From positions 248,001-312,000 of the forward strand of contig JAHEMR010000004.1 in the NCBI GenBank assembly GCA_024643545.1: DNA of 64,000 bases, given 5' to 3'. Positions 34,948 through 48,303 of this stretch are shown in pieces. The translations under genes and the position numbers were made by a program. This DNA is from Crocinitomicaceae bacterium (lineage in GTDB: Bacteria > Bacteroidota > Bacteroidia > Flavobacteriales_D > Crocinitomicaceae). Below the pieces are notes generated by a model, which was not told the DNA's origin, ran no database searches, and worked only from the letters and a program-made list of their open reading frames with translations. Every line of letters begins with the position of its first letter. Position 1 is the first letter of the stretch.

Positions 34948-37900
34948 GTGCATAAATTAATACGAAACATCTGTGGTATTCATCCGTCAAAAGCAAGTTT
35001 ACTTGTTTTGTGTGTCTTGATGTATGCTTCAGTCGTTCATGCACAAAATGGAATTAACCTTCCTTTCCCCATTTTTAATCCAATGAATCCCTATCAGAAC
35101 TTACCTCAAAGTTTTGACTTAGGTGACCCGACTTCCATGCAACAATCGATTGTATTTGATCCAGAGACAGGTCAATATGTGTTTAAGGAAACGTTGGGGA
35201 AAAATGGATTGTATTATCGAAATCCATCTAAAATGAGTTTAGAAGACTACCTCGACTACAACGAGAAGAAGTCTCAAAAAATGGATTGGCAAGAAATTAT
35301 TGAAGAACAAAGTGCAGAAAACCGTGCTTTTGAGTTGCCAATCAAAATAGGAAGCAAAGCTTTTACGAGTATTTTTGGATCAGACGAAATCAAGATTATT
35401 CCTGGGGGAAATTTGGAACTCTCACTCGGGATTAATCACTCACGCGTTGACAATCCCCTACTTCCTCAAAGGCAACGAAACATTACACGATTTGACTTTA
35501 ATCAAAACATCAATATGGACATCACTGGCCAAATTGGAACAAAGATGAAGTTGAACATGAAGTACAACACTGCGGCTAATTTTGACTTTGAAAATATTTC
35601 CAAAATCGAACATACTGGTAAAGAAGATGAGATCATTCAGAAAATTGGGATTGGGAATGTTTCGTTAAGCTTACCTACTTCATTAATTCAAGGGTCTCAA
35701 ACTTTATTCGGAGTTAAAACGCAATTAAAATTTGGTCGGTCAACATTTGATTTGATCGCCGCTGCATCAAAAGGAAAACGTACCGAAATCAACGTGACGG
35801 GTAAAGCCCAAATTCAAAAATTTGAAGTGACCGCTGATAATTATGAAGCGAATCGCCATTACTTCTTAAATCTTTACCACCAACAACATTACGATACTGC
35901 AATGTCCACATTGCCGGTAGTGAATTCAACCATGTACATCACAAGAATTGAGGTGTGGGTAACAAATCGAACAAGCAACACGGAAAACACACGTAATATT
36001 GTTGCACTTTCGGATTTAGGTGAAGCATTACCAAGTAACTGTCAAGGAAATCCTGGTTCATATGCCGGTACTGAAATTCCAGATAACGAAGCGAATGGAC
36101 TTTACCAGTGGGCCGCGAATCAACCGATGATTCGAAGTTTTGTAAATTCTACCACCGCATTGTCTGCCCAAGTGAATGCTCCTGGTCCTTTCAAACAAGC
36201 AGTTGATTACGAAAAAGTCGAAAACGCACGAAAATTAACAGAATCAGAATTTACCTACAATGCCCTCCTTGGGTATATTTCCCTCAATAATGCGCTGAAT
36301 AATGATGAGGTGTTAGCTGTTTCCTATGAATATACTTACAGAGGTGAGACGTTTCAAGTCGGAGAATTTTCAACGGATGGAGCCAGTGGTCAACAAGCTT
36401 TAATTCTAAAACTTTTAAAACCTACCATCACCAGCCCCAAAAATAAAATTTGGGATTTGATGATGAAAAATGTTTACTCGATTGGAGCATATCAAGTAGA
36501 TCAACTTGGATTTAAAATTGATATCTACTATAACAATCAAGAAACATCCCTTCTACAACCTTTCATGCCATTTGCAGGTGTCGATAAAAAACAAATTGTC
36601 ACCTTGTTAGACATGGATAAAATCAACCAAAACAACCAACCATTTTCTGATGGTGTTTTTGATTTTGCACCGTTTAACGTAGTTGGAAACAAGATCGATA
36701 ATGGGGGAACCATCAATAAGAAAAATGGAAGAATCTTCTTTAGTACAGTTGAACCATTCGGTAAAACTTTAGCGGAGAAATTAACCGCCGCTGGTGTTCC
36801 AGATGTGAACGTCAATAAAATTTCTTTTACGGAATTATACGATTCAACGAAAACCGCAGCGCAACAAATCCCTAGTAAAAATCGCTTCATATTCAAGGGA
36901 GAATTTCAATCATCCATCAGCTCAGAGATACCATTAAATCAAATGAATATTCCTCAAGGTGCAGTTGTGGTAACAGCGGGAGGAATCAAATTGATTGAAG
37001 GAACTGACTACACGGTTGATTACGCGTTTAGTCGGGTGAAAATCTTAAACACGGGTATTTTGGAATCGAATACACCGATTAAAATTACAATCGAAAGCAA
37101 TTCCGTTTTTGGATTCCAAGCACGATCAATGATGGGAGGACATTACCAATATCGATTGAACGAAAATTTCAAAATTGGTGCGACCTACATTCGCATGTTG
37201 GAACGACCCGTTACGCAAAAAGTAGACTTTGGGAATGAGCCATTTAAAAACAGCATGCTTGGTGCCGATTTCTCACTGCGTACCAATGTGCCGATTTTAA
37301 CTAAATTGGTTGACCTACTCCCTGTCATTTCGACCAATCAAATGTCCACCTTGTCGTTGACTGGTGAATATGCGCATTTAATACCTGGTCAGCCTAAAGC
37401 GATTAACAAAAGTGGAACTTCCTATATTGACGATTTTGAGGCAAGTCAAAGCGCCATAGATTTACGCCAATTTTCTGCTTGGAGAATGGCTTCTATTCCA
37501 CAAGGGCAACCTGATTTGTTTCCAGAAGCAAGTTTAAAAAGTCTCTCTTCAGGATTTAAACGTGCAAAAGCTGTTTGGTACACCATTGACCCTGTCTTTT
37601 ATCAGAGTAATTCTTTAACTCCTGATCATATTAAGCAAAATCCAGCTATGTTAACGGATAGTCGCATGCGCTTGGTGAATCAAGTTGATATTTTCCCGAA
37701 CCTTCAGCAGCAATATGGATCTATTCAAAACATTCCAATTTTAGAACTCGCCTATTATCCAACTGAAAGGGGAATGTATAACTACGACACCACGAATACC
37801 GTTGACTCTTTGGGACGATTTATTAATCCTGAAAATCGTTGGGGTGGGATAATGCGCGGTTTATCCACGAATGATTTCGAGGTAGCGAACATCGAATTTA

Positions 37901-40900
37901 TTCAATTTTGGGTATTAGACCCATTCAATGAAGACGCTGAAAATGAAAATCCAAATACGTTCCATACAGGTGGAGACCTCTATTTTAACCTAGGAAACAT
38001 CTCCGAAGATGTACTTCCAGATTCACGTAAGAGTTTTGAAAATGGACTTCCTTCAACACTAGATGTACCGTTAAGTGATAACATGGATACGACGGTGTGG
38101 TCGAGAATCTCCACGCAACAAATCGTGGTGAATGCCTTTGACAATGATCCAACTGCACGTACAAATCAAGATATTGGTATTGATGGATGGAAAAATAACC
38201 AAGAATCAACCTCTTATCAATCTTATGTGAATTGGGTTCAAAATAATGCGACACTTAATGCCGCTACCAAAGCACGAATGATTGCCGACCCATCTAACGA
38301 CGATTACACCTATTACCTAGATGACAATTACGATAATCAACAACTAAACATTCTAAAACGTTACAAGCGTTACAATGGAATGGAAGGAAATTCACCAACC
38401 ACGAGTATGTCTGACACAACGAATCAGGCAGGTTACCCTACTCAAGCAAGTAACCAACCCGATAATGAAGACATCAACCAAGATAATAATTTAGGGGAAA
38501 GTGAATCGTATTTTCAATACCGTGTTAGTATGCGTCCAAACGACTTACAACAAGTTGGAAACAATTACATCACGAATAAACAAATCTATCAAAACGGAAC
38601 CAAAACCGAAACATGGTATCAATTTAAAGTTCCCGTTAGTGATTTCGAGAAAAGGGTAAATGGAATTCAAGATTTTCGTTCCATACGATTCATGCGTATG
38701 TTCCTTAAAAATTTCGATGAAGAGGTCATTTTACGTTTCGCTCGACTGGAGCTTATTCGCGGTGAATGGAGAAGATATAAACAAGATTTAACGCAACCAG
38801 GATTAAGCGTACAGACTGACCCTAATTTAACAACATTCAATATTGCTGCGTTAAACATTGAAGAAAACGGACAGCGCCAACCAATTAATTACGTTGTTCC
38901 ACCGGGAATTGTACGTGAAATTGACCCTTCACAAGTATATCAGCGCCAAATGAACGAACAATCCTTGGTGTTGGAAGTGTGTAACTTACAAGACGGCGAT
39001 GCAAGAGCTGCTTATAGAAATGTTCAATTTGATGTACGAACTTACAAGAAATTGAAAATGTTTGTCCACGCTGAATCCGTTGTCCAAAATCAATGTAAGG
39101 ACAATGAGTTAAGTGTTTTCGTTCGACTTGGGACAGATTACGTTGAAAACTATTATGAATACGAACTTCCGGTGAAAATTACAGATTGGGGAGCTTCGAA
39201 TCCAGAGTCTATTTGGCCAGAACTGAACAACATCGAAATTGTTTTTGACGATTTATTAAACCTGAAAACAGCACGAAACAAAAAAGTTGAACAAGGAGCC
39301 CCTGGCGTCTCATACATCACGGAATATGAGATTGTTGACCCGCAAAACCCTCAACGAAAATTAAAAGTAAAAGGTAGTCCAAACTTGCAGGGAATGCGCA
39401 CCATTATGATTGGGGTTCGCAATCCATTAAAAACGGACCCGGATAACATCTGGCTTCCGGATAGTGGTGATGCCGAATGTGTGAATGTTTGGGTAAATGA
39501 AATGCGTTTAACAGACTTTGTGAGTGAAGGGGGTGACGCCGCAATTGGTCAAATGCAAGTTCAACTAGCCGACTTTGCTAACATTTCAGCTTCAGGTAAT
39601 TATTCCGGTGTCAATTGGGGAAGTGTCGAAAGTCGTGTGCAGGAGCGTCAAAGAAATCAGAAAATTGGCTTCGATATGAACTCTACCGTTCAACTTGGAC
39701 AATTCTTCGGCAAACAAGCACGTGTTTCGTTGCCGTTCTTTTACGGATATTCTTTGGGAGTGATCAATCCAGAATACGATCCTTTTAATCCAGACATTAA
39801 GTTATCTACCTACGATTTTGCTACCCGAAAAGAACGTTCAAAACTTGGACAAGACTTTACTGAACGTAGATCATTTAACTTTACTAATGTAAGAAAAGAG
39901 GCAAAAGCTGGAACGAAACCTCAATTTTGGAGTATTTCCAATTGGTCTGCTACGTATGCTTTTGCAGAAAACTTAAAGCGTGATTTCAACATCACTGCTG
40001 ATCGAACGAAAACATGGACAGGAGCGTTGAACTACAACTACACGTTCTCCGGAAAAGCCATCGAACCATTTAAGAAATGGGAAGCTGTTCAAAAATCACC
40101 TTGGTTAAAATGGATCAAAGAATTTAACCTGTTCTTACTTCCAAAAAACATCACATTTACAAACGATTACTCAAGAATTTACAACGAAAGACAGATACGT
40201 AACATCATTGTCCCTACGTATCAGTTTGATCCAATTTACCTCAAGCGTTTTGATTGGAATAGAAATTACCAAGTTGGATATGATTTAACGAAAAATTTAA
40301 AAACAACTTTTAGCGCCACGAATAAATCCATTTTTGTGGAAGGAAATCACGGTGTTGACCGCGTAACAAATCCAGAAGGATACCGCGAATTTATGGATAC
40401 CATTCGTTCCCAAATTACTACGTTTGGACGTACCATGGATTACACACACAATTACAGCATTAGCTATAACATTCCGCTGGATAAATTCCCATTAACAAAT
40501 TGGATTACTGCCAACGCGAAATATGCTGGTACATTTAATTGGCAGCGATCACCACTTGGACAAGCACCTTTTGGTAATACCGTTCAAAACAATCGCACAG
40601 TTAATATGACATTGCAAGGAAACTTTGTGACACTTTACAACAAAGTACCTTATTTCAAACGTGTTCTATCAGATGGCAAAGGGATGAAATCGAATGTCAA
40701 TTCAAAAGTTGGGAACGCCGGCGAAGGTGGCGGTGCGGCTAAACCGAATACGGCAGGACCAACAAAGTTGCCGGAATTCAAGCCCGAAAAGCCAATAGAA
40801 GAAATGACAGCCAAAGAATTGAAACAATACGAAAGGCAGAAAAAACGCTTCGATAGAAAACAGCTTCGACTTCAAGAAATAAAGGATAAGGAAAAAGAAA

Positions 40901-42303
40901 AAGTAAATCCGATTGGAGGATTCATTGCACGACTAATTATGAGTGTTCGAAATGTATCTGGAACTTATGCCCTAACAGATGGAACAATGTTGCCGGGATA
41001 CAATCAAGAATCTAGTATTCTTGGTATGAACGGAAGTAGCCTTGGAATGTCAAGTTTTGTTTTCGGTAAACAAGGGTACGATCTATTCGGGAGAAGCAAC
41101 GGATACAACGTTAGTACGCTTGCACGCGATAATAATTGGCTCGTTCAAAATGAAAATTTGAATAAACAATTTACCACTACACATACAGCTAACCTTCAAC
41201 TTAAAGCGACCTTAGAACCAATTAAAGATTTAAATGTTAATTTAAATCTAAGTCGCAATTACAGTACCAATTCCGGAGAGTTTTACCGTTGGAACGCAAC
41301 AACCAACGCATTTGAAAGCCAAAGCAAATTTGAGACAAGTACCCTCACATATACCACGCTAACATGGGGTTCGGCATTTATAAAAGAAGGGAAAGATTTT
41401 TCTTCAACCGTTTTCACCACGATGCTAAATAATAGAACCCAAGTTTCACAATTATTGGGAGCACAAAATTCCAATTCAACCTTACTTCCGAATGGTTACT
41501 ACAGCGGTTATTCCGGTTCTCAACAGGAGGTTGTAATGGGTGCATTCTTAACTGCATACACGAACACAAGTGTAAATAGTAAATCAATCAATCCACTATC
41601 GAATATTCCGCTGCCAAACTGGACCATTAACTACAACGGACTTACGAAGTTTGCCTTTGCAAAAGATGTAATCAAATCCTTTAAATTAAATCACAGTTAT
41701 TCATCGTCCACTAGTATTAATGGAATGCAAACCAATTTGAATGCTGTATTAGATGGAAATGGACAAGCTACAGCTTTAGACATCAACAATAATTACATTG
41801 CAGGAATGCAAATACAAAACATTACCATCTCTGAGCGTTTTTCACCACTCATTGGTATGTTGGCAACATGGAACATATTAGGCAAAAACATCACCACCAA
41901 TTTTGAATATAAAAAGGATCGTCAGACTACGCTTTCTTTGAATAATAATCAAATAACAGAGGTGCTTGGGAAAGAAATTGTGGTTGGAACCGTGATTAAC
42001 ATTCCTAAATTGAAACTTCCAGTACGGAGTTTAAAAGCAAGCGATTTATTGATCAATGTGAACTTCTCTTTCCGAGACAATTCTACAATCATTCGCAAAG
42101 TAGTTGAAAATACAAACCAAGCAACTGCGGGTCAAACAACGGTAAGTTTCAAACTTGATGCAAATTACAAACTGTCTGATCACCTAAGTGCTATTTTCTA
42201 TTATGAGCAATTCCTAAACACTCCGAAAGTATTCATCAGTTATCCAACAGGAAACTTGAAGACTGGAATTACCCTTCGCTTTGACTTGAACGGTTTAAAA
42301 TAA
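34948..42303 (+). CDS. sprA: type IX secretion outer-membrane translocon protein SprA
   Basis: SprA forms the very large outer-membrane channel of the type IX secretion system. The 2451-residue length is typical. The start is GTG (34948) with a signal peptide ending near VHAQ. The sequence is full of beta-strand pairs and contains the known SprA segments NITRFDFNQNINMDITGQIG, SYIDDFEASQS and RFARLELIRGEWRRY. A Lys/Glu-rich insert (about residues 1940-1990) interrupts the C-terminal barrel part. Probable substrates in this window are the proteins at 25982 and 45804. ruvA-sprA is a common neighbourhood in the phylum. Confidence 0.96.
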   Translation: MHKLIRNICGIHPSKASLLVLCVLMYASVVHAQNGINLPFPIFNPMNPYQNLPQSFDLGDPTSMQQSIVFDPETGQYVFKETLGKNGLYYRNPSKMSLEDYLDYNEKKSQKMDWQEIIEEQSAENRAFELPIKIGSKAFTSIFGSDEIKIIPGGNLELSLGINHSRVDNPLLPQRQRNITRFDFNQNINMDITGQIGTKMKLNMKYNTAANFDFENISKIEHTGKEDEIIQKIGIGNVSLSLPTSLIQGSQTLFGVKTQLKFGRSTFDLIAAASKGKRTEINVTGKAQIQKFEVTADNYEANRHYFLNLYHQQHYDTAMSTLPVVNSTMYITRIEVWVTNRTSNTENTRNIVALSDLGEALPSNCQGNPGSYAGTEIPDNEANGLYQWAANQPMIRSFVNSTTALSAQVNAPGPFKQAVDYEKVENARKLTESEFTYNALLGYISLNNALNNDEVLAVSYEYTYRGETFQVGEFSTDGASGQQALILKLLKPTITSPKNKIWDLMMKNVYSIGAYQVDQLGFKIDIYYNNQETSLLQPFMPFAGVDKKQIVTLLDMDKINQNNQPFSDGVFDFAPFNVVGNKIDNGGTINKKNGRIFFSTVEPFGKTLAEKLTAAGVPDVNVNKISFTELYDSTKTAAQQIPSKNRFIFKGEFQSSISSEIPLNQMNIPQGAVVVTAGGIKLIEGTDYTVDYAFSRVKILNTGILESNTPIKITIESNSVFGFQARSMMGGHYQYRLNENFKIGATYIRMLERPVTQKVDFGNEPFKNSMLGADFSLRTNVPILTKLVDLLPVISTNQMSTLSLTGEYAHLIPGQPKAINKSGTSYIDDFEASQSAIDLRQFSAWRMASIPQGQPDLFPEASLKSLSSGFKRAKAVWYTIDPVFYQSNSLTPDHIKQNPAMLTDSRMRLVNQVDIFPNLQQQYGSIQNIPILELAYYPTERGMYNYDTTNTVDSLGRFINPENRWGGIMRGLSTNDFEVANIEFIQFWVLDPFNEDAENENPNTFHTGGDLYFNLGNISEDVLPDSRKSFENGLPSTLDVPLSDNMDTTVWSRISTQQIVVNAFDNDPTARTNQDIGIDGWKNNQESTSYQSYVNWVQNNATLNAATKARMIADPSNDDYTYYLDDNYDNQQLNILKRYKRYNGMEGNSPTTSMSDTTNQAGYPTQASNQPDNEDINQDNNLGESESYFQYRVSMRPNDLQQVGNNYITNKQIYQNGTKTETWYQFKVPVSDFEKRVNGIQDFRSIRFMRMFLKNFDEEVILRFARLELIRGEWRRYKQDLTQPGLSVQTDPNLTTFNIAALNIEENGQRQPINYVVPPGIVREIDPSQVYQRQMNEQSLVLEVCNLQDGDARAAYRNVQFDVRTYKKLKMFVHAESVVQNQCKDNELSVFVRLGTDYVENYYEYELPVKITDWGASNPESIWPELNNIEIVFDDLLNLKTARNKKVEQGAPGVSYITEYEIVDPQNPQRKLKVKGSPNLQGMRTIMIGVRNPLKTDPDNIWLPDSGDAECVNVWVNEMRLTDFVSEGGDAAIGQMQVQLADFANISASGNYSGVNWGSVESRVQERQRNQKIGFDMNSTVQLGQFFGKQARVSLPFFYGYSLGVINPEYDPFNPDIKLSTYDFATRKERSKLGQDFTERRSFNFTNVRKEAKAGTKPQFWSISNWSATYAFAENLKRDFNITADRTKTWTGALNYNYTFSGKAIEPFKKWEAVQKSPWLKWIKEFNLFLLPKNITFTNDYSRIYNERQIRNIIVPTYQFDPIYLKRFDWNRNYQVGYDLTKNLKTTFSATNKSIFVEGNHGVDRVTNPEGYREFMDTIRSQITTFGRTMDYTHNYSISYNIPLDKFPLTNWITANAKYAGTFNWQRSPLGQAPFGNTVQNNRTVNMTLQGNFVTLYNKVPYFKRVLSDGKGMKSNVNSKVGNAGEGGGAAKPNTAGPTKLPEFKPEKPIEEMTAKELKQYERQKKRFDRKQLRLQEIKDKEKEKVNPIGGFIARLIMSVRNVSGTYALTDGTMLPGYNQESSILGMNGSSLGMSSFVFGKQGYDLFGRSNGYNVSTLARDNNWLVQNENLNKQFTTTHTANLQLKATLEPIKDLNVNLNLSRNYSTNSGEFYRWNATTNAFESQSKFETSTLTYTTLTWGSAFIKEGKDFSSTVFTTMLNNRTQVSQLLGAQNSNSTLLPNGYYSGYSGSQQEVVMGAFLTAYTNTSVNSKSINPLSNIPLPNWTINYNGLTKFAFAKDVIKSFKLNHSYSSSTSINGMQTNLNAVLDGNGQATALDINNNYIAGMQIQNITISERFSPLIGMLATWNILGKNITTNFEYKKDRQTTLSLNNNQITEVLGKEIVVGTVINIPKLKLPVRSLKASDLLINVNFSFRDNSTIIRKVVENTNQATAGQTTVSFKLDANYKLSDHLSAIFYYEQFLNTPKVFISYPTGNLKTGITLRFDLNGLK

Positions 42304-42749: not shown

Positions 42750-42784
42750 CGCAAGTTTAGTTGTAAGATGTCATCTATTTAATT

Positions 42785-43354
42785 GTGTCAGAAGAAATTG
42801 ATATCCAAGCGCTGCAACTCGGTGATGTACACGCATTCGAAATGCTCGTAGTTACCTACGAAAAAAAAGTACTGAACATGTGTTGGCACCTTTTACACAA
42901 CCGAGAAGAAGCTGAAGACGCTACACAAGATGTTTTTATCGCAATTTACCAATCTAAACACTTATTCAAGGGCGAGTCTCAACTTTACACATGGGTTCAC
43001 CGCATTACCATGAATAAATGCCTCGAATACATTCGGCGTTCAAAACGAAAAAAACGCTTCGGGATTAACATTCCAATTGATGAAACATTTCTGAATGCAG
43101 AAAATTCGACGCAACTTGACCCCGAACAAGTATTGATAGAAAAAGAGCGAGCAAAAGCATTTTATACGGCCGTGCAGCAACTTTCCGATAAGCAACGCAT
43201 TGCCTACAGTTTACATCACTTTGAGGACATTAGTTACAAAGAAATTAGCGAAAGTATGAACCTCTCGTTATCTGCTATTGAATCTCTGATCTTTCGAGCC
43301 AAGCAACAGCTAATTAAACAATTAAAAGATCCAATTCTTCAAAATTGGATTTAA
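42785..43354 (+). CDS. ECF-type RNA polymerase sigma factor
   Basis: This 189-residue sigma-70 family member starts with GTG. Region 2 is seen in NREEAEDATQDVFIAIYQ and TWVHRITMNKCLEYIRRSK, and region 4 in LSDKQRIAYSLHHFED and SYKEISESMNLSLSAIESL. A one-helix small membrane protein and a Spy/CnrX-like sensor follow at once, the layout of CnrH with CnrY and CnrX. I infer that it turns on the MbnP/MbnH/YHYH genes and probably its own operon in response to a metal in the periplasm. Confidence 0.92.
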   Translation: MSEEIDIQALQLGDVHAFEMLVVTYEKKVLNMCWHLLHNREEAEDATQDVFIAIYQSKHLFKGESQLYTWVHRITMNKCLEYIRRSKRKKRFGINIPIDETFLNAENSTQLDPEQVLIEKERAKAFYTAVQQLSDKQRIAYSLHHFEDISYKEISESMNLSLSAIESLIFRAKQQLIKQLKDPILQNWI

Positions 43355-43404
43355 GTCACAAGAAAAACAACTGATTAACATCTAAGTAAATTAGAATTGG
43401 AACT

Positions 43405-43641
43405 ATGAAGAATCATCGAACAATACAACCTATAGAAGTCAGTGCTTCACTTCATGATCGACTCATGAAAAGTCCGGTTTATGCACAAAAAATAAAAACG
43501 CGTACACTGACCATAAGCATTTTAACGACACTTTTAATCTTGATTAATTTATTTTATTTCATGGCAAACCAAGAAAATATTACTGAAGACCAAATTCTTG
43601 AGTCGCAATATGCTAATTTTGGTTCAGACCTTTCCATTTAA
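43405..43641 (+). CDS. small one-helix membrane protein, candidate anti-sigma factor
   Basis: This 78-residue protein has about 30 polar N-terminal residues, one membrane helix (TLTISILTTLLILINLFYFM) and an acidic C-terminal tail. There is no recognisable domain. Size, topology and position right after an ECF sigma gene match short anti-sigma factors such as CnrY, whose cytoplasmic tail holds the sigma factor. That role is inferred from context only. Confidence 0.6.
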   Translation: MKNHRTIQPIEVSASLHDRLMKSPVYAQKIKTRTLTISILTTLLILINLFYFMANQENITEDQILESQYANFGSDLSI

Positions 43642-43651
43642 TACCTAAAAA

Positions 43652-44089
43652 ATGAAAGCAAATAAACTATTACTTATCTGCATTGGCATATTGATTATCA
43701 TCAATGTGTTTTTACTGCTTAATTGCAACAAGTGTGGACAAGGTGAACCACCGCATCCTCCAAAATTGAGTTTAGCACTCGACATGAAAGGAAAAGATGC
43801 CGCATGGGTCGATCATGAATTTCAACGCCATATTCATGAAAAAGATGGCTTTTTAAACCAACAAAAGTCTTGGCGCATGAAACTCTCATTAGACCGATCC
43901 AAATCAGAAAAAAATCAACGTATTTTAGAAAAAATCAGTCGGCTTCAATACCAAATTGACTCATGCACATTCGATCATTTCATGAAAGTGAAAGCGATTT
44001 GTACGAAAAAGCAAGAAGAAAAACTTCATCGTTTGGTATACCGAATGATTCAAAGAGCAGGTAAACCAGGTCCAAAAGGAAGACCATGA
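43652..44089 (+). CDS. Spy/CnrX-like periplasmic heavy-metal sensor
   Basis: This 145-residue protein has an N-terminal membrane anchor (LLLICIGILIIINVFLLLNC) followed by a helical periplasmic domain. The His/Glu-rich DHEFQRHIHEKDGF segment may bind metal, and the later CTFDHFMKVKAICTKKQEEKL part matches the helix pair of the Spy/CpxP/CnrX family. CnrX holds metal and passes the signal through CnrY to CnrH. The next gene overlaps by four bases. Confidence 0.75.
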   Translation: MKANKLLLICIGILIIINVFLLLNCNKCGQGEPPHPPKLSLALDMKGKDAAWVDHEFQRHIHEKDGFLNQQKSWRMKLSLDRSKSEKNQRILEKISRLQYQIDSCTFDHFMKVKAICTKKQEEKLHRLVYRMIQRAGKPGPKGRP

Positions 44090-44736
44090 AACAACTCTTC
44101 ACATTCATTGTTTTTACAGCGCTTTTCAATCAAGCTCGCACGCAATTGAATGTGTCCCTTCGTTGGGGAACAGAACACATTGTACTTGATAAATATTACC
44201 TACTATCGAACGACAGTTTGATTTTTCGTGAAATGAAATTTTATCTATCCGATTTTCAATTTGAAAAAGATACGAGAAAACACATGATCCTTGGAACGCA
44301 TCTTATTGATCTTTCAGACAGTAGTTCATTTCAACTATTTCCAAATTTTCCGGTAGACGAATACGAACGAGTGCATTTTAATTTTGGACTTGATAGTAGC
44401 TATCAGGTTTCTGAAATCGTTGACGGCCCGTTAAATCCAATGAATGGGATGTATTGGGCATGGAATTCGGGATACATTCAATTCAAGTGTACTGGAAATT
44501 CATCAGCGATTGCATTAACTGATCAGACCTTTGAATACCATTTGGGTGGTTATCGTCAGCCATTTGAAACCCTTGTGCCCATTCAATTAGCCATTAACGG
44601 GAATACACTCATTCTAGACATAAAACCATTTTTTCAACAGACGGTAGATTTTACATCGGTACAACGCGTCATGATTCCTGGTAAAATTGCGCAATCTTAT
44701 TGTTTGGAACTATCTAAATCGTTTCGATCCGAATGA
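44086..44736 (+). CDS. MbnP-family metal-binding protein
   Basis: This 216-residue protein has a signal peptide at residues 1-19 and the MbnP/CorA fold, recognised by NSLIFREMKFYLSDFQ-like (SNDSLIFREMKFYLSDFQF), FNFGLDSSYQ, and PLNPMNGMYWAWNSGY. In known MbnP proteins a tryptophan is oxidised to kynurenine by the partner MbnH and helps bind copper. Trp124 and Trp126 lie in the MYWAW motif here, but which Trp is modified cannot be told. It overlaps both neighbours by four bases. Confidence 0.82.
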   Translation: MKQLFTFIVFTALFNQARTQLNVSLRWGTEHIVLDKYYLLSNDSLIFREMKFYLSDFQFEKDTRKHMILGTHLIDLSDSSSFQLFPNFPVDEYERVHFNFGLDSSYQVSEIVDGPLNPMNGMYWAWNSGYIQFKCTGNSSAIALTDQTFEYHLGGYRQPFETLVPIQLAINGNTLILDIKPFFQQTVDFTSVQRVMIPGKIAQSYCLELSKSFRSE

Positions 44737-45767
44737 AAGCAACAGCCATCATTTTAGGGAGCTTTGTTGCCAGTTGGATTTTCCTTGCTGGAATTTTAGA
44801 TGAAACACCATTTTATGTCCCAACAAAATGGCCGAAGCCCATCTACGATTTTACGGAAAATCCACTTTCGCAGGAAAAATTTGAATTAGGACGAACCTTG
44901 TTTTACGATCCAGATCTTTCCAGAGATAGTACCATTTCTTGCGCAAATTGTCACCTCCAATATTCCGGTTTTACGCACATTGATCATGCATTGAGTCATG
45001 GAATCGATGGGAAAATTGGTACACGAAATGCTCCTGTTTTAATCAATTTAGCTTGGCAAGAGTTTTTTCATTGGGATGGCGGTGTGAGTTCTTTGAATAA
45101 ACAAGCCATTAATCCGTTGACACATTCAAAAGAAATGGATAACAACCTTGTTGAAATTCTACGAAGATTGAATCAATCAAATTTCTATCGGACTCGGTTT
45201 TATCGCGCATTCGGCGAAAGTACTATTCAAACTTCTTCCCTATTGAAAGCACTAGCAAACTTTACCGTTTCATTGGTTTCGGCTTATTCGACATATGACC
45301 GCGTTAAACGTGGAGAGTCCAAGTTTACTCCTCAAGAACAAGCAGGTTATAAACGCTTCAAAAAATACTGTGCTTCCTGTCATCAAGAACCTTTATTCAT
45401 GAAAAATGAATTTAAATCCAATGGAATCAATTATATGCCAACACTTGGAGACTTAGGAAGAATGGCCGTCACGAATCGAAAGGAAGATTCCTTGCTTTTC
45501 AAAATACCAACCTTACGGAACATCGAATTCAGTTTTCCTTATATGCATGATGGACGCTTTAAACAATTAAAGGATGTACTGAATCATTACGGGAATTTAC
45601 ATGGAAATCAAACGTATTACAGCAATGAGCTCAAAAAACTAAATCGCCCACTTACATCCAATGAACAAAAAGACCTCATCGCCTTTTTAAAAACGTTGAG
45701 TGATCAAAATTTTCTTTTTAATCCTAAATTTAAATACCCTAAAAATGAGCGAAATGCAAGTTTTTAA
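44733..45767 (+). CDS. dihaem cytochrome c peroxidase/MauG-family protein, MbnH-like
   Basis: This 344-residue protein has an N-terminal membrane anchor or signal and two CxxCH haem c sites: CANCH at residues 70-74 and CASCH at 213-217. Conserved segments are FELGRTLFYDPDLSRDSTIS, GTRNAPVLINLAWQEFFHWDG, and FPYMHDGRFKQLKDVLNHYG. MbnH enzymes use such haems and peroxide to oxidise a tryptophan of MbnP. Its coupling to the MbnP-like gene (ATGA) supports that role over a simple peroxidase. Confidence 0.88.
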   Translation: MKATAIILGSFVASWIFLAGILDETPFYVPTKWPKPIYDFTENPLSQEKFELGRTLFYDPDLSRDSTISCANCHLQYSGFTHIDHALSHGIDGKIGTRNAPVLINLAWQEFFHWDGGVSSLNKQAINPLTHSKEMDNNLVEILRRLNQSNFYRTRFYRAFGESTIQTSSLLKALANFTVSLVSAYSTYDRVKRGESKFTPQEQAGYKRFKKYCASCHQEPLFMKNEFKSNGINYMPTLGDLGRMAVTNRKEDSLLFKIPTLRNIEFSFPYMHDGRFKQLKDVLNHYGNLHGNQTYYSNELKKLNRPLTSNEQKDLIAFLKTLSDQNFLFNPKFKYPKNERNASF

Positions 45768-45803
45768 AAAAATGAACATCTAACCTCAAACAAGCGAAAA
45801 ATT

Positions 45804-47165
45804 ATGAAAAAAATCAACCTTTTATTATTGCTATTTGTTTGCAGTCAGCAAGCAATGGCACAATTAAATCCTGCGATTGAACATTGGATCATCAATACAA
45901 CAGGGATCACCGGAAGACACTATGTTCAAGGAAACTCGACACCTATCAATGAAACAACCTTGGCAAATGTACAAACCGTACAATACTCAAATAATTGGGT
46001 TTACATTTCTACTAAAGGAATTCCGTCTTATATCACAGGACCATTTTTGGATGGGAATCCATCCCTAGCAACAAGTCAAAATGCCATTTTTAAAATTCCG
46101 CTAAATCCGACACAAAATACTGGAACTGCCACTCCTACTACTGGAGGAAACATTGGGATTTTCGTCAATGGTGTTGCATTGTTTGACTACCGTGATGGTG
46201 TTGCATGGAATTCAACAACGAATACCTTATGCGGTGGATTACCTGGAATGTCACCATGTCCAGGTGGCCCAGGAGCTGCTATGTCTTGGAACAGAGATGC
46301 CATTCCTGCAGAAAAAGTAGGTTTTGACTGTTCCAAAGGACACCCCGCAATGGGAAATTACCACCACCATCAAAATCCAAGTGCGTTTAAATTGGATCTT
46401 ACCGTTATCTCAAACGTTTGTGATTTATATGATGCCGATGGACTTTACGTAATCGATTCAACCGTACACGCTCCATTAATTGGTTACGCGTACGATGGCT
46501 TTCCCATTTATGGGGCCTATGGTTATGCAAATACTGACGGAACAGGTGGAATTACACGGATGAAATCCGGTTACCAATTGCGAAATATCACCACACGTAC
46601 GGTTTGGGCGGATGGGACAGATGTTCCGGATGGACCGGCCGTGAGTACTACTTATCCACTTGGATACTTTCGCGAGGATTATGAATTTGTTAGTCATTCA
46701 GGACAAGCAGACTTTTTAGATGTTCATAATGGGCGCTTTTGTGTCACTCCTGAATATCCCAATGGCATCTATTGCTATTTTACCACGGTGAATGAACAAT
46801 GGAACTCTGCATATCCATATGTAGTTGGACCCACATTTTACGGTGTGAAGTCCGCATCAAAAGTTACTTCAATTACTGAAACGGTCACAAACTATACTTC
46901 ATCCGCTGGAATTAATGAATTAACAGAAAATGAATGGTCTGTTTATCCGAATCCAAGTAATGACATCATCATGGTTCAAGTAAATGATTTAACCAATCAA
47001 AGTTATACTGTTGAATTATATGACGCATTAGGAAAACACATCCAATCACAGCAAATTGTACAAGGAAGTACCATTGCCTATTTCAATGCAGATACGTTAT
47101 ATAAAGGAGTGTATCTTGTGAAAATTAAAGGTCAAAACGGTTCGAAAAAAATCGTGATACGATAG
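45804..47165 (+). CDS. secreted YHYH-domain protein with type IX sorting domain
   Basis: This 453-residue protein has a signal peptide at residues 1-20 and a YHYH domain. The motif GNYHHHQNPSAFKLDL has Tyr186 followed by three His, and APLIGYAYDGFPIYGAYGY is the family signature. The last 80 residues form a type A sorting domain (NEWSVYPNPSNDIIMVQV ... KIVIR), so it should be exposed or released by the type IX system. The function of YHYH domains is unknown; the His cluster and the MbnP/MbnH neighbours suggest metal binding (inference). It lies 36 bases after MbnH and is followed by a terminator. Confidence 0.85.
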   Translation: MKKINLLLLLFVCSQQAMAQLNPAIEHWIINTTGITGRHYVQGNSTPINETTLANVQTVQYSNNWVYISTKGIPSYITGPFLDGNPSLATSQNAIFKIPLNPTQNTGTATPTTGGNIGIFVNGVALFDYRDGVAWNSTTNTLCGGLPGMSPCPGGPGAAMSWNRDAIPAEKVGFDCSKGHPAMGNYHHHQNPSAFKLDLTVISNVCDLYDADGLYVIDSTVHAPLIGYAYDGFPIYGAYGYANTDGTGGITRMKSGYQLRNITTRTVWADGTDVPDGPAVSTTYPLGYFREDYEFVSHSGQADFLDVHNGRFCVTPEYPNGIYCYFTTVNEQWNSAYPYVVGPTFYGVKSASKVTSITETVTNYTSSAGINELTENEWSVYPNPSNDIIMVQVNDLTNQSYTVELYDALGKHIQSQQIVQGSTIAYFNADTLYKGVYLVKIKGQNGSKKIVIR

Positions 47166-47192
47166 GTCTAGAAGAAATTTAAGTAAAGGAAA

Positions 47193-47219
47193 GGCACATA
47201 TATCATGTGCCTTTTTTTC
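47193..47219 (+). terminator. intrinsic terminator after the YHYH gene
   Basis: AGGCACAT pairs with ATGTGCCT around ATATC, followed by seven T. It closes the sigma factor-MbnP-MbnH-YHYH operon. Confidence 0.9.
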
Positions 47220-47455: not shown

Positions 47456-47565
47456 GTCGACGTCCCTCGGGAATATATATAAGAAGCACCTGTCCTTATT
47501 TATTCAAATGTACCACTCAGACTTTAATGTCTACTACTAGGAAGGGCTGAAAAGCCCTTTTTTTA
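47456..47565 (+). ncRNA. candidate small RNA 2 or leader with a 10-codon ORF
   Basis: A strong plus-strand terminator at 47542-47565 has no annotated gene in front of it, so something is transcribed toward it. The stretch holds a tiny ORF at 47508-47540 (MYHSDFNVYY) that stops just before the hairpin. The start is a guess; a poor promoter (TAGTTTTTG, 47448-47456) precedes it. Confidence 0.3.
47542..47565 (+). terminator. intrinsic terminator (GAAA tetraloop) in the intergenic region
   Basis: AAGGGCT pairs with AGCCCTT around GA-AA, followed by a T-run. It is oriented for the plus strand; read from the minus-strand gene it has no T-tract. Confidence 0.8.
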
Positions 47566-48303
47566 TTGTATTTTGTAAAGTACGGGTCTACTCGGACTTG
47601 CATCATTTTTAAATGCCGCCATTTGAATTTCAAGAATATAGGTTCCGTCCGAAACTTCATTCGGGACATAGATTAATTCTGTGATTGTACGTTCAAAATT
47701 TGGTTTTTCTGGAACATTCCAAAATGCATGGTGAAATGCCAACGCTCCTCCATCCTCTTCCCTATCTACCGATGGTTGATCCACTAAAAAATGTTTCACA
47801 TGGTATTCATTCAGTAATTCAACAAGTGCTACATCGAAATAGCACGGATTTGTTCCTGAATAATTTAGTGCTTTTTTATCCGGACCATTTGGTAATGTTC
47901 GAACAATTATCGCTTCCGAAAATTCAGGTTTTAAAAACGGTGCGATTTGCGCAGCTTGAACAACAAAATCTCCATTTTCCAACTGTACTGGATCTACCGT
48001 AATTAACGTCGCTCGGTAAAAATATTCCTTCAAGACATCATTTACCGCATAAACTTCGTTGGTAATGTGTCCACAGCATTCCGTATGGGTTCCGTGTCCG
48101 TGAGGATTGAAAAATACATCGCGGAAATTCACACTTCCACCTTCTTGAATGCTTCCGACAAACCCATTTGCTCGAACAATCTCCATCCTAGGTGGGTCAA
48201 CATACCATGCTCTAACGTTTTCTGTTGAAGCTTGTAACGGCATCGAAAGATCAATAGCCTCACTGGTTTCTATAAATTCGGATTTGGAAAGGTATAAACG
48301 CAT
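47563..48303 (-). CDS. cyclase-family metal-dependent hydrolase (kynurenine formamidase-like)
   Basis: This 246-residue protein belongs to the cyclase/arylformamidase superfamily. The metal motif HxGTHxDxPxH appears as HGHGTHTECCGH (residues 68-79), with Glu75 in the Asp position and Cys-Gly for Pro. Members hydrolyse N-formylkynurenine, isatin or similar amides; this subgroup is not assigned. It has no signal peptide. It converges on the metal operon, with the small-RNA region between. Confidence 0.8.
   Translation of the reverse strand: MRLYLSKSEFIETSEAIDLSMPLQASTENVRAWYVDPPRMEIVRANGFVGSIQEGGSVNFRDVFFNPHGHGTHTECCGHITNEVYAVNDVLKEYFYRATLITVDPVQLENGDFVVQAAQIAPFLKPEFSEAIIVRTLPNGPDKKALNYSGTNPCYFDVALVELLNEYHVKHFLVDQPSVDREEDGGALAFHHAFWNVPEKPNFERTITELIYVPNEVSDGTYILEIQMAAFKNDASPSRPVLYKIQ

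Follow-up and report, generated by a model that had tools for sequence, protein, structure and literature searches.

A stretch of 64,000 nucleotides from a Crocinitomicaceae bacterium (assembly GCA_024643545.1, contig JAHEMR010000004.1; the whole stretch is called the window, and the genome it comes from, 2.75 Mb in 38 contigs, is called G000) carries six adjacent genes for an extracytoplasmic function (ECF) sigma factor, a predicted anti-sigma factor, a putative CnrX-like sensor, MbnP, an MbnH-like di-haem enzyme and a YHYH protein. Matching promoter-like sites suggest joint control of the regulators, the MbnP-MbnH pair and the YHYH gene by a single sigma factor, a wiring that seems to be retained where the genes have been split. 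We propose that the sigma factor drives its own gene and the four that follow it, for the anti-sigma factor, the sensor, MbnP and MbnH, and that it acts on the YHYH gene through a promoter-like site of its own. The response would most likely be one of copper homeostasis, and we put this reading as a whole at a probability of about one half. What is new here is the sequence evidence for joint sigma control; Cnr-type control itself was already known. The genes and sites of the cluster are as follows.

42751..42778, plus strand: P1, a predicted ECF-type promoter-like site, GCAAGTTT-N13-CATCTAT, with the exact 14-base core and 14 of 15 consensus positions.
42785..43354, plus strand: ECF sigma factor gene (CnrH-like role) with a GTG start; Sigma70_r2 (PF04542) and Sigma70_r4_2 (PF08281) over cut-off.
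43358..43385, plus strand: P2, a weaker promoter-like site before the anti-sigma gene, ACAAGAAA-N13-CATCTAA, 11 of 15.
43405..43641, plus strand: predicted anti-sigma gene (CnrY-like role), 78 aa, one membrane helix.
43652..44089, plus strand: gene of a predicted membrane-anchored CnrX-like sensor (structure model, pLDDT 89.4).
44086..44736, plus strand: MbnP gene (PF20243, E 1.6e-32, score 113.4 against a gathering threshold of 27).
44733..45767, plus strand: gene of an MbnH-like di-haem enzyme (CCP_MauG, PF03150, E 7.7e-51).
45756..45783, plus strand: P3, a promoter-like site before the YHYH gene, GCAAGTTT-N13-CATCTAA, with the exact core and 15 of 15.
45804..47165, plus strand: YHYH gene with a signal peptide-like start and a type IX sorting domain (PF14240, 1.5e-58; Por_Secre_tail, PF18962, 5e-13).
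47190..47214, plus strand: terminator hairpin followed by a T run (-16.2 kcal/mol, z -5.35).

An earlier, sequence-only reading of this DNA had described six genes with gaps of 50, 10, -4, -4 and 36 bases from the first to the sixth and a terminator at the end. All of this was borne out by the listing of open reading frames (ORFs), which has all six on the plus strand, and by folding, which gives a strong terminator hairpin. It had also taken the six genes for one operon. Their adjacency holds, and with up to three sigma-type sites they are better described as a cluster; the two exact sites and the weaker one may define three overlapping transcription units in place of a single one. P3 begins within the 3' end of the MbnH gene. 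Only 6 bases separate the -10 element of P1 from the GTG start of the sigma gene, a short distance that recurs in many relatives, and the sigma transcript may therefore be leaderless or nearly so. In the whole of G000 the 14-base core, GCAAGTTT-N13-CATCTA, has exactly two copies, one before the sigma gene and one before the YHYH gene, and no match with exactly one mismatch was found. Among 26 sites at two mismatches, 24 have no ORF beginning within 80 bases, and the remaining two are internal to ORFs.

Sites in relatives were scored out of 15 against two forms of the consensus, class I (GCAAGTTT-N13-CATCTAA) and class II (GAAGGATT-N13-CGTCTAA), the latter used by other lineages. The motif search upstream of the sigma gene allowed spacers of 12 to 19, and sites of at least 12 were found in 33 of 67 distinct regions as compared with 39 of 1340 random stretches, the spacer being 13 in all 33. 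Upstream of YHYH genes, where only class I was considered, 39 of 153 regions reached at least 12, against 20 of 2715 controls. Among 58 distinct loci such sites were present at the P1, P2 and P3 positions in 29, 33 and 35 cases, respectively (random stretches: 23/1740). Where both P2 and P3 qualified they belonged to the same class in 23 of 23 loci, 12 of them class II and 11 class I. P1 likewise agreed with P3 (18/18) and with P2 (14/14), which is less informative because every one of these is class I. Outside the order of the source organism, in loci not used to derive the motif, a 15/15 site precedes the YHYH gene in two genomes (G414 and G497). As for class II genomes, P3 is the best site and P2 the next best in G149 and G097, and P3 alone is the best in G166 and G038. 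The idea that class II marks a large regulon was rejected: counts at two mismatches were not clearly over those of a backward-pattern control, and only the best sites carry weight. One sublineage (L077, L127, L128, L129 and L194) has 14/15 sites before the anti-sigma gene and none before YHYH; its YHYH gene directly follows that of MbnH with no site of its own, so that P2 may serve YHYH there.

The sensor was also sought in 73 genomes, and a site before YHYH was counted when it scored at least 12. Such a site was present in 25 of the 38 genomes with the sensor and in 4 of the 35 without it (Fisher 2.8e-6), and in 25/34 versus 4/20 when only high-scoring YHYH proteins were considered (p 2e-4). 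When the sensor gene did not adjoin YHYH the site was kept in 7 of 11 cases, some of which may be separated merely by a contig break. In G052 contig 9 carries the trio of regulatory genes, whose sigma gene has a one-mismatch site upstream and another within it, and on contig 20 a site precedes MbnP at two mismatches and YHYH at one. Further one-mismatch sites of this genome lie before other genes, one of class II before a run of a DUF2490 gene and two CotH-like genes (L329 3808-7229) and one before an LTXXQ-like gene (family match below cut-off). The sigma factor may also target the DUF2490-CotH run; the CotH link was seen in G052 only, and CotH has six matches in G000. In G030 the sigma and YHYH genes are about 65 kb apart and share the -10 variant CAACTAA; the sigma-sensor genes of this genome are flanked on both sides by MbnP-MbnH pairs (L296 3851-8835). 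The sole exact class II site of G414 precedes YHYH, and the sensor gene, which is on a different contig from YHYH, has a two-mismatch site 290 bases ahead of it. Four genomes with YHYH and no sensor at E <=0.01 (G426, G442, G335 and G251) have no site of at least 13 in the fetched loci. Self-regulation, as the sequence-only reading had proposed, is thus well supported by the sigma-type sites before the sigma gene and the cluster genes.

Whether the neighbourhood is conserved beyond close relatives had been set as a check on that reading, and conservation was found order-wide as well as in one genome outside the order. The order-wide sample comprised 199 genomes, 93 of them with YHYH, from which 88 YHYH loci were read (54 high-scoring or full-type, 28 lower-scoring and 6 without a strong YHYH by our own profile). 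For loci with at least 3.5 kb upstream, MbnP and MbnH were present in 40 and sigma factor and sensor in 25 of the 47 high-scoring loci, with corresponding counts of 3 and 2 for the 24 lower-scoring ones. In another collection of 80 named loci, 23 of which have less than 3.5 kb upstream, MbnP and MbnH occurred in 62, and 43 of these also had the sigma factor and sensor. By their record labels the named loci are mostly from uncultured Crocinitomicaceae and Flavobacteriales, and some bins look mislabelled; other labels are Saprospiraceae (L200), Sphingobacteriales (L209) and Chitinophagales (L196), besides a single isolate, Flavobacterium sp. WG47 (L232), whose promoter-like sites are weak. Phylum-wide, full-type YHYH was found in 14 of 395 genomes at E <=1e-60, G000 included. 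Twelve loci were read from outside the order. One of them (G434) has all five genes of the set that were sought there (sigma factor, sensor, MbnP, MbnH and YHYH), the sigma gene being truncated at the edge of its contig. Five more genomes have MbnH, four of these with MbnP, and G414 has the order YHYH-multicopper oxidase-redoxin; the remaining loci had neither MbnP nor MbnH within the stretch read. In four relatives the MbnH and YHYH genes are separated by a gene that, by eye, resembles that of a microbial rhodopsin (L211 3003-3731, L212 5107-5838, L214 7143-7889 and L215 7142-7888).

These counts also bear on the possibility that three units, the sigma-sensor genes, the MbnP-MbnH pair and YHYH, are clustered loosely or by chance and have no common function. 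Full-type YHYH has neither partner unit in 6 of 47 loci, two loci (L084 and L113) have sigma factor and sensor beside YHYH without the pair, and MbnP-MbnH pairs occur twice elsewhere in G000. On the other hand, the units have re-joined in other orders (YHYH precedes the pair in L213 and L086), the set recurs outside the order in G434, and matching sites remain on separated units, and we regard chance clustering as very improbable.

The first three genes had been likened to the CnrYXH trio, and the likeness gained support from a sensor model closest to CnrX and from a one-helix ORF at the expected place in all 44 loci. Compared with solved chains, the sigma factor matches CnrH (4cxf_A) at 3.7e-5, yet is closer to RpoE, SigH and SigW chains. 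An ORF of 70-112 aa with one helix occupies the gap between the sigma and sensor genes in 44/44 loci, as compared with 6/44 on the reverse strand and 12/220 random places; from position and helix the small protein is predicted to be the anti-sigma factor. Neither the second nor the third protein has a Pfam or NCBIfam match over cut-off. CnrX ranked first in both structure comparisons made with the sensor model, and the predicted model is that of a CnrX-fold periplasmic sensor. His60 is conserved in 36 of 36 sensors and Cys117 in 34 of 36. Fifteen of these 36 relatives match PF13801 at E <=0.1, and the protein in the window has no such match.

The sensor is also the starting point of an explanation without a metal switch, in which it would be a Spy/CpxP-like sensor of envelope stress, YHYH a zinc-dependent hydrolase, and the MbnP-MbnH pair a client of envelope or oxidative stress. 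The sensor profile touches Spy (3oeo_A, 0.0011), the model is also near CpxP, Spy and ZraP, and the sites before the DUF2490-CotH run and the LTXXQ-like gene in G052 would fit such a response, as would a published prediction for YHYH domains discussed below. We nevertheless find this improbable, given that CnrX came first in both structure comparisons and that MbnP and the multicopper oxidase links point towards copper.

That the fourth and fifth genes encode a pair of the MbnP/MbnH type, another element of the sequence-only reading, agrees with the Pfam matches and with the nearest solved enzyme. MbnP keeps W124, W126, M122 and H152 in 43 of 43 sequences, all of which have the WxW motif, and its profile found no solved relative at E <=1. 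For the MbnH-like enzyme the best solved relative is 6e1c (E 6.7e-60 with the profile), ahead of CCP and MauG chains; its entry name is Di-heme enzyme, and we take it to be MbnH. Both CxxCH haem motifs are invariant in 33 sequences. MbnH oxidises a tryptophan of MbnP to kynurenine. Six of 180 fetched loci carry a multicopper oxidase gene within or close to the cluster, namely L204 (between MbnH and YHYH), L080, L213, L228, L231 and L235. The best site before these six genes scored only 11/15, so the link rests on position there; in G414, in addition, the oxidase gene follows YHYH behind a 15/15 site. The WxW motif of MbnP, MbnH as nearest solved enzyme and the multicopper oxidase in a few relatives make copper the likely metal.

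From these observations we infer which metal is involved, in which direction the switch works and what each of the six proteins does. CnrX-type sensors release their sigma factor upon metal binding. By analogy, the small membrane protein would keep the sigma factor bound at the inner membrane until a metal, probably copper, binds the periplasmic sensor, perhaps through the conserved His60 and Cys117, and the sigma factor is freed as in Cnr. It would then fire P1, P2 and P3. MbnH would oxidise a tryptophan in the WxW motif of MbnP, which would then bind copper, and the type IX pathway would carry YHYH to the cell surface. With the anti-sigma factor and the sensor behind P2, the circuit would include negative feedback. 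More tentatively, the cluster may represent a Cnr-type metal-sensing sigma switch rewired to a kynurenine-copper system that extends from the periplasm to the surface, in which YHYH acts as a metal protein on the outside of the cell and a single sigma factor synchronises both halves even when their genes are apart.

Several results weigh against this interpretation. With at most one mismatch the core pattern has 2 matches in G000 and its backward control also 2, and at three mismatches the counts, 177 and 172 against 218 and 214, show no excess. The random-stretch controls ignore relatedness, near-identical loci from two collections were both counted, and shared descent accounts for part of the class agreement. 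Two class II genomes (G138 and G155) have sites as good located elsewhere, and two others (G086 and G173) have a better one elsewhere than in the cluster. Thirteen of the 38 sensor-bearing genomes lack a site of at least 12 before YHYH, and such a site is present in 4 of the 35 that have no sensor. The profile of the putative anti-sigma factor found no solved anti-sigma factor at E up to 10 and no detectable similarity to CnrY, and its charge bias is uneven (N-in in 26, tied in 11 and N-out in 7 of 44 loci). Both members of the MbnP/MbnH pair fall below the NCBIfam cut-offs (MbnP 26.6 of 140 for TIGR04052, the enzyme 198.5 of 362.85 for TIGR04039).

The direction of the switch may also be the opposite with the same wiring, in line with the acquisition view of the sequence-only reading: copper scarcity would induce an acquisition system in which YHYH captures metal at the surface and MbnP carries it in the periplasm. 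The metal-bound state in which CnrX-type sensors free their sigma factor argues against this, and the 28 commonest flanking families listed, judged from sequence starts, include no TonB-dependent receptor or importer. Many carriers are, by record title, small-genome freshwater bacteria, in favour of acquisition. So is the related CorA/CorB system, which works alike and, according to the accessible part of its description (PMC3912023), is made at low copper with CorA bound to the surface, contrary to a metal-on switch. On balance we consider acquisition unlikely.

Type IX export of the YHYH protein, also part of the sequence-only reading, is backed by sorting-domain matches over cut-off in both Pfam and NCBIfam (TIGR04183). 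In the YHYH domain H180, H187-H189, H222 and several aspartates are kept in 41 of 41 sequences. A fold prediction from 41 close relatives had a mean pLDDT of 48.7, too low for a fold search, and matches to solved chains cover the sorting tail or are weak and unrelated. YHYH proteins are numerous, with 6854 matches among 8000 candidates scored in one search. In the portion of PMC7824862 that is accessible, YHYH domains are predicted to be zinc-dependent hydrolases with a zinc site; together with the 7 of 47 loci in which full-type YHYH has no MbnP-MbnH pair nearby, this argues against the proposed handing of metal from YHYH to MbnP.

No description of the six-gene combination was found in the open-licence literature. 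The cluster resembles CnrYXH of Cupriavidus metallidurans in its ECF sigma factor, its short one-helix anti-sigma candidate and its membrane-anchored periplasmic sensor with a predicted fold closest to CnrX, and in having sigma-type sites upstream of both its own genes and a target gene. It differs in gene order (sigma factor, anti-sigma factor, sensor), in its missing sequence match to CnrY and in its targets, MbnP-MbnH and YHYH; no efflux pump of the CnrCBA type is present among the six genes or their direct neighbours. The metal ligands of CnrX are H42, H46, E63, H119 and M123, and the candidate ligands here, judged by conservation, are His60 and Cys117. With the MbnP/MbnH pairs of Methylosinus and others (TIGR04052/TIGR04039) the cluster shares an adjacent gene pair, WxW, two CxxCH motifs and 6e1c as nearest solved structure, whereas the YHYH partner and the scores under cut-off set it apart. 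Isolated pairs in Methylosinus also lie near ECF sigma genes, which according to the accessible text of PMC3621798 are of the FecI/FecR type with a TonB-dependent receptor, in contrast to the CnrX-type sensor here. CorA/CorB and MopE of methanotrophs are similar in that a surface or periplasmic kynurenine copper protein adjoins a di-haem enzyme gene, and the part of PMC3912023 available describes no sensor-sigma trio such as the one present here; MbnP has no marked sequence similarity to MopE or CorA, as stated in the available part of PMC3621798. The protein shares with other YHYH-domain proteins (PF14240, phage tail proteins included) a Pfam match over cut-off and the conserved histidine cluster, and differs in its type IX sorting tail, the sigma-type site upstream and the link to MbnP-MbnH.

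Other features of the surroundings were noted. Directly upstream of the cluster is a 2451-aa ORF (window 34948-42303, plus strand) that stays close to it in near relatives and presumably encodes the type IX translocon protein SprA, which it resembles. The two additional MbnP-MbnH pairs of G000 (L337 7324-9284 and L338 7196-9012) have no recognised sigma or sensor gene adjacent, and no class I site of at least 12 or class II site of at least 13 in the fetched stretches; one of the two MbnP proteins has, by eye, a C-terminal tail like that of type IX substrates. An arylformamidase-like (putative cyclase) gene at 47563-48303 on the minus strand was tempting as a part of the cluster because kynurenine is the presumed product of MbnH. 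The protein scores 29.8 of 223, far under the arylformamidase cut-off. The gene is present in 39 of 40 genomes searched, G000 included, and is on another contig than the sigma-sensor genes in G003, G005, G009 and G014. Being near-universal in relatives and often elsewhere, it is probably beside the cluster only incidentally.

The conserved order of the genes, the sites with their agreement in class and the link to the sensor can be read directly from the sequences, and they have a bearing beyond this organism. In Bacteroidota only 6% of ECF factors have a class I anti-sigma factor nearby, according to the accessible part of PMC7406223, and the cluster offers a likely anti-sigma factor for one set of them. 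The promoter sequence makes the regulon readable from genomes. In the papers accessible, the literature on YHYH consists of predictions only, and a shared promoter that ties one kind of YHYH protein to a metal-type sensor and an MbnP-MbnH pair gives it a testable role.

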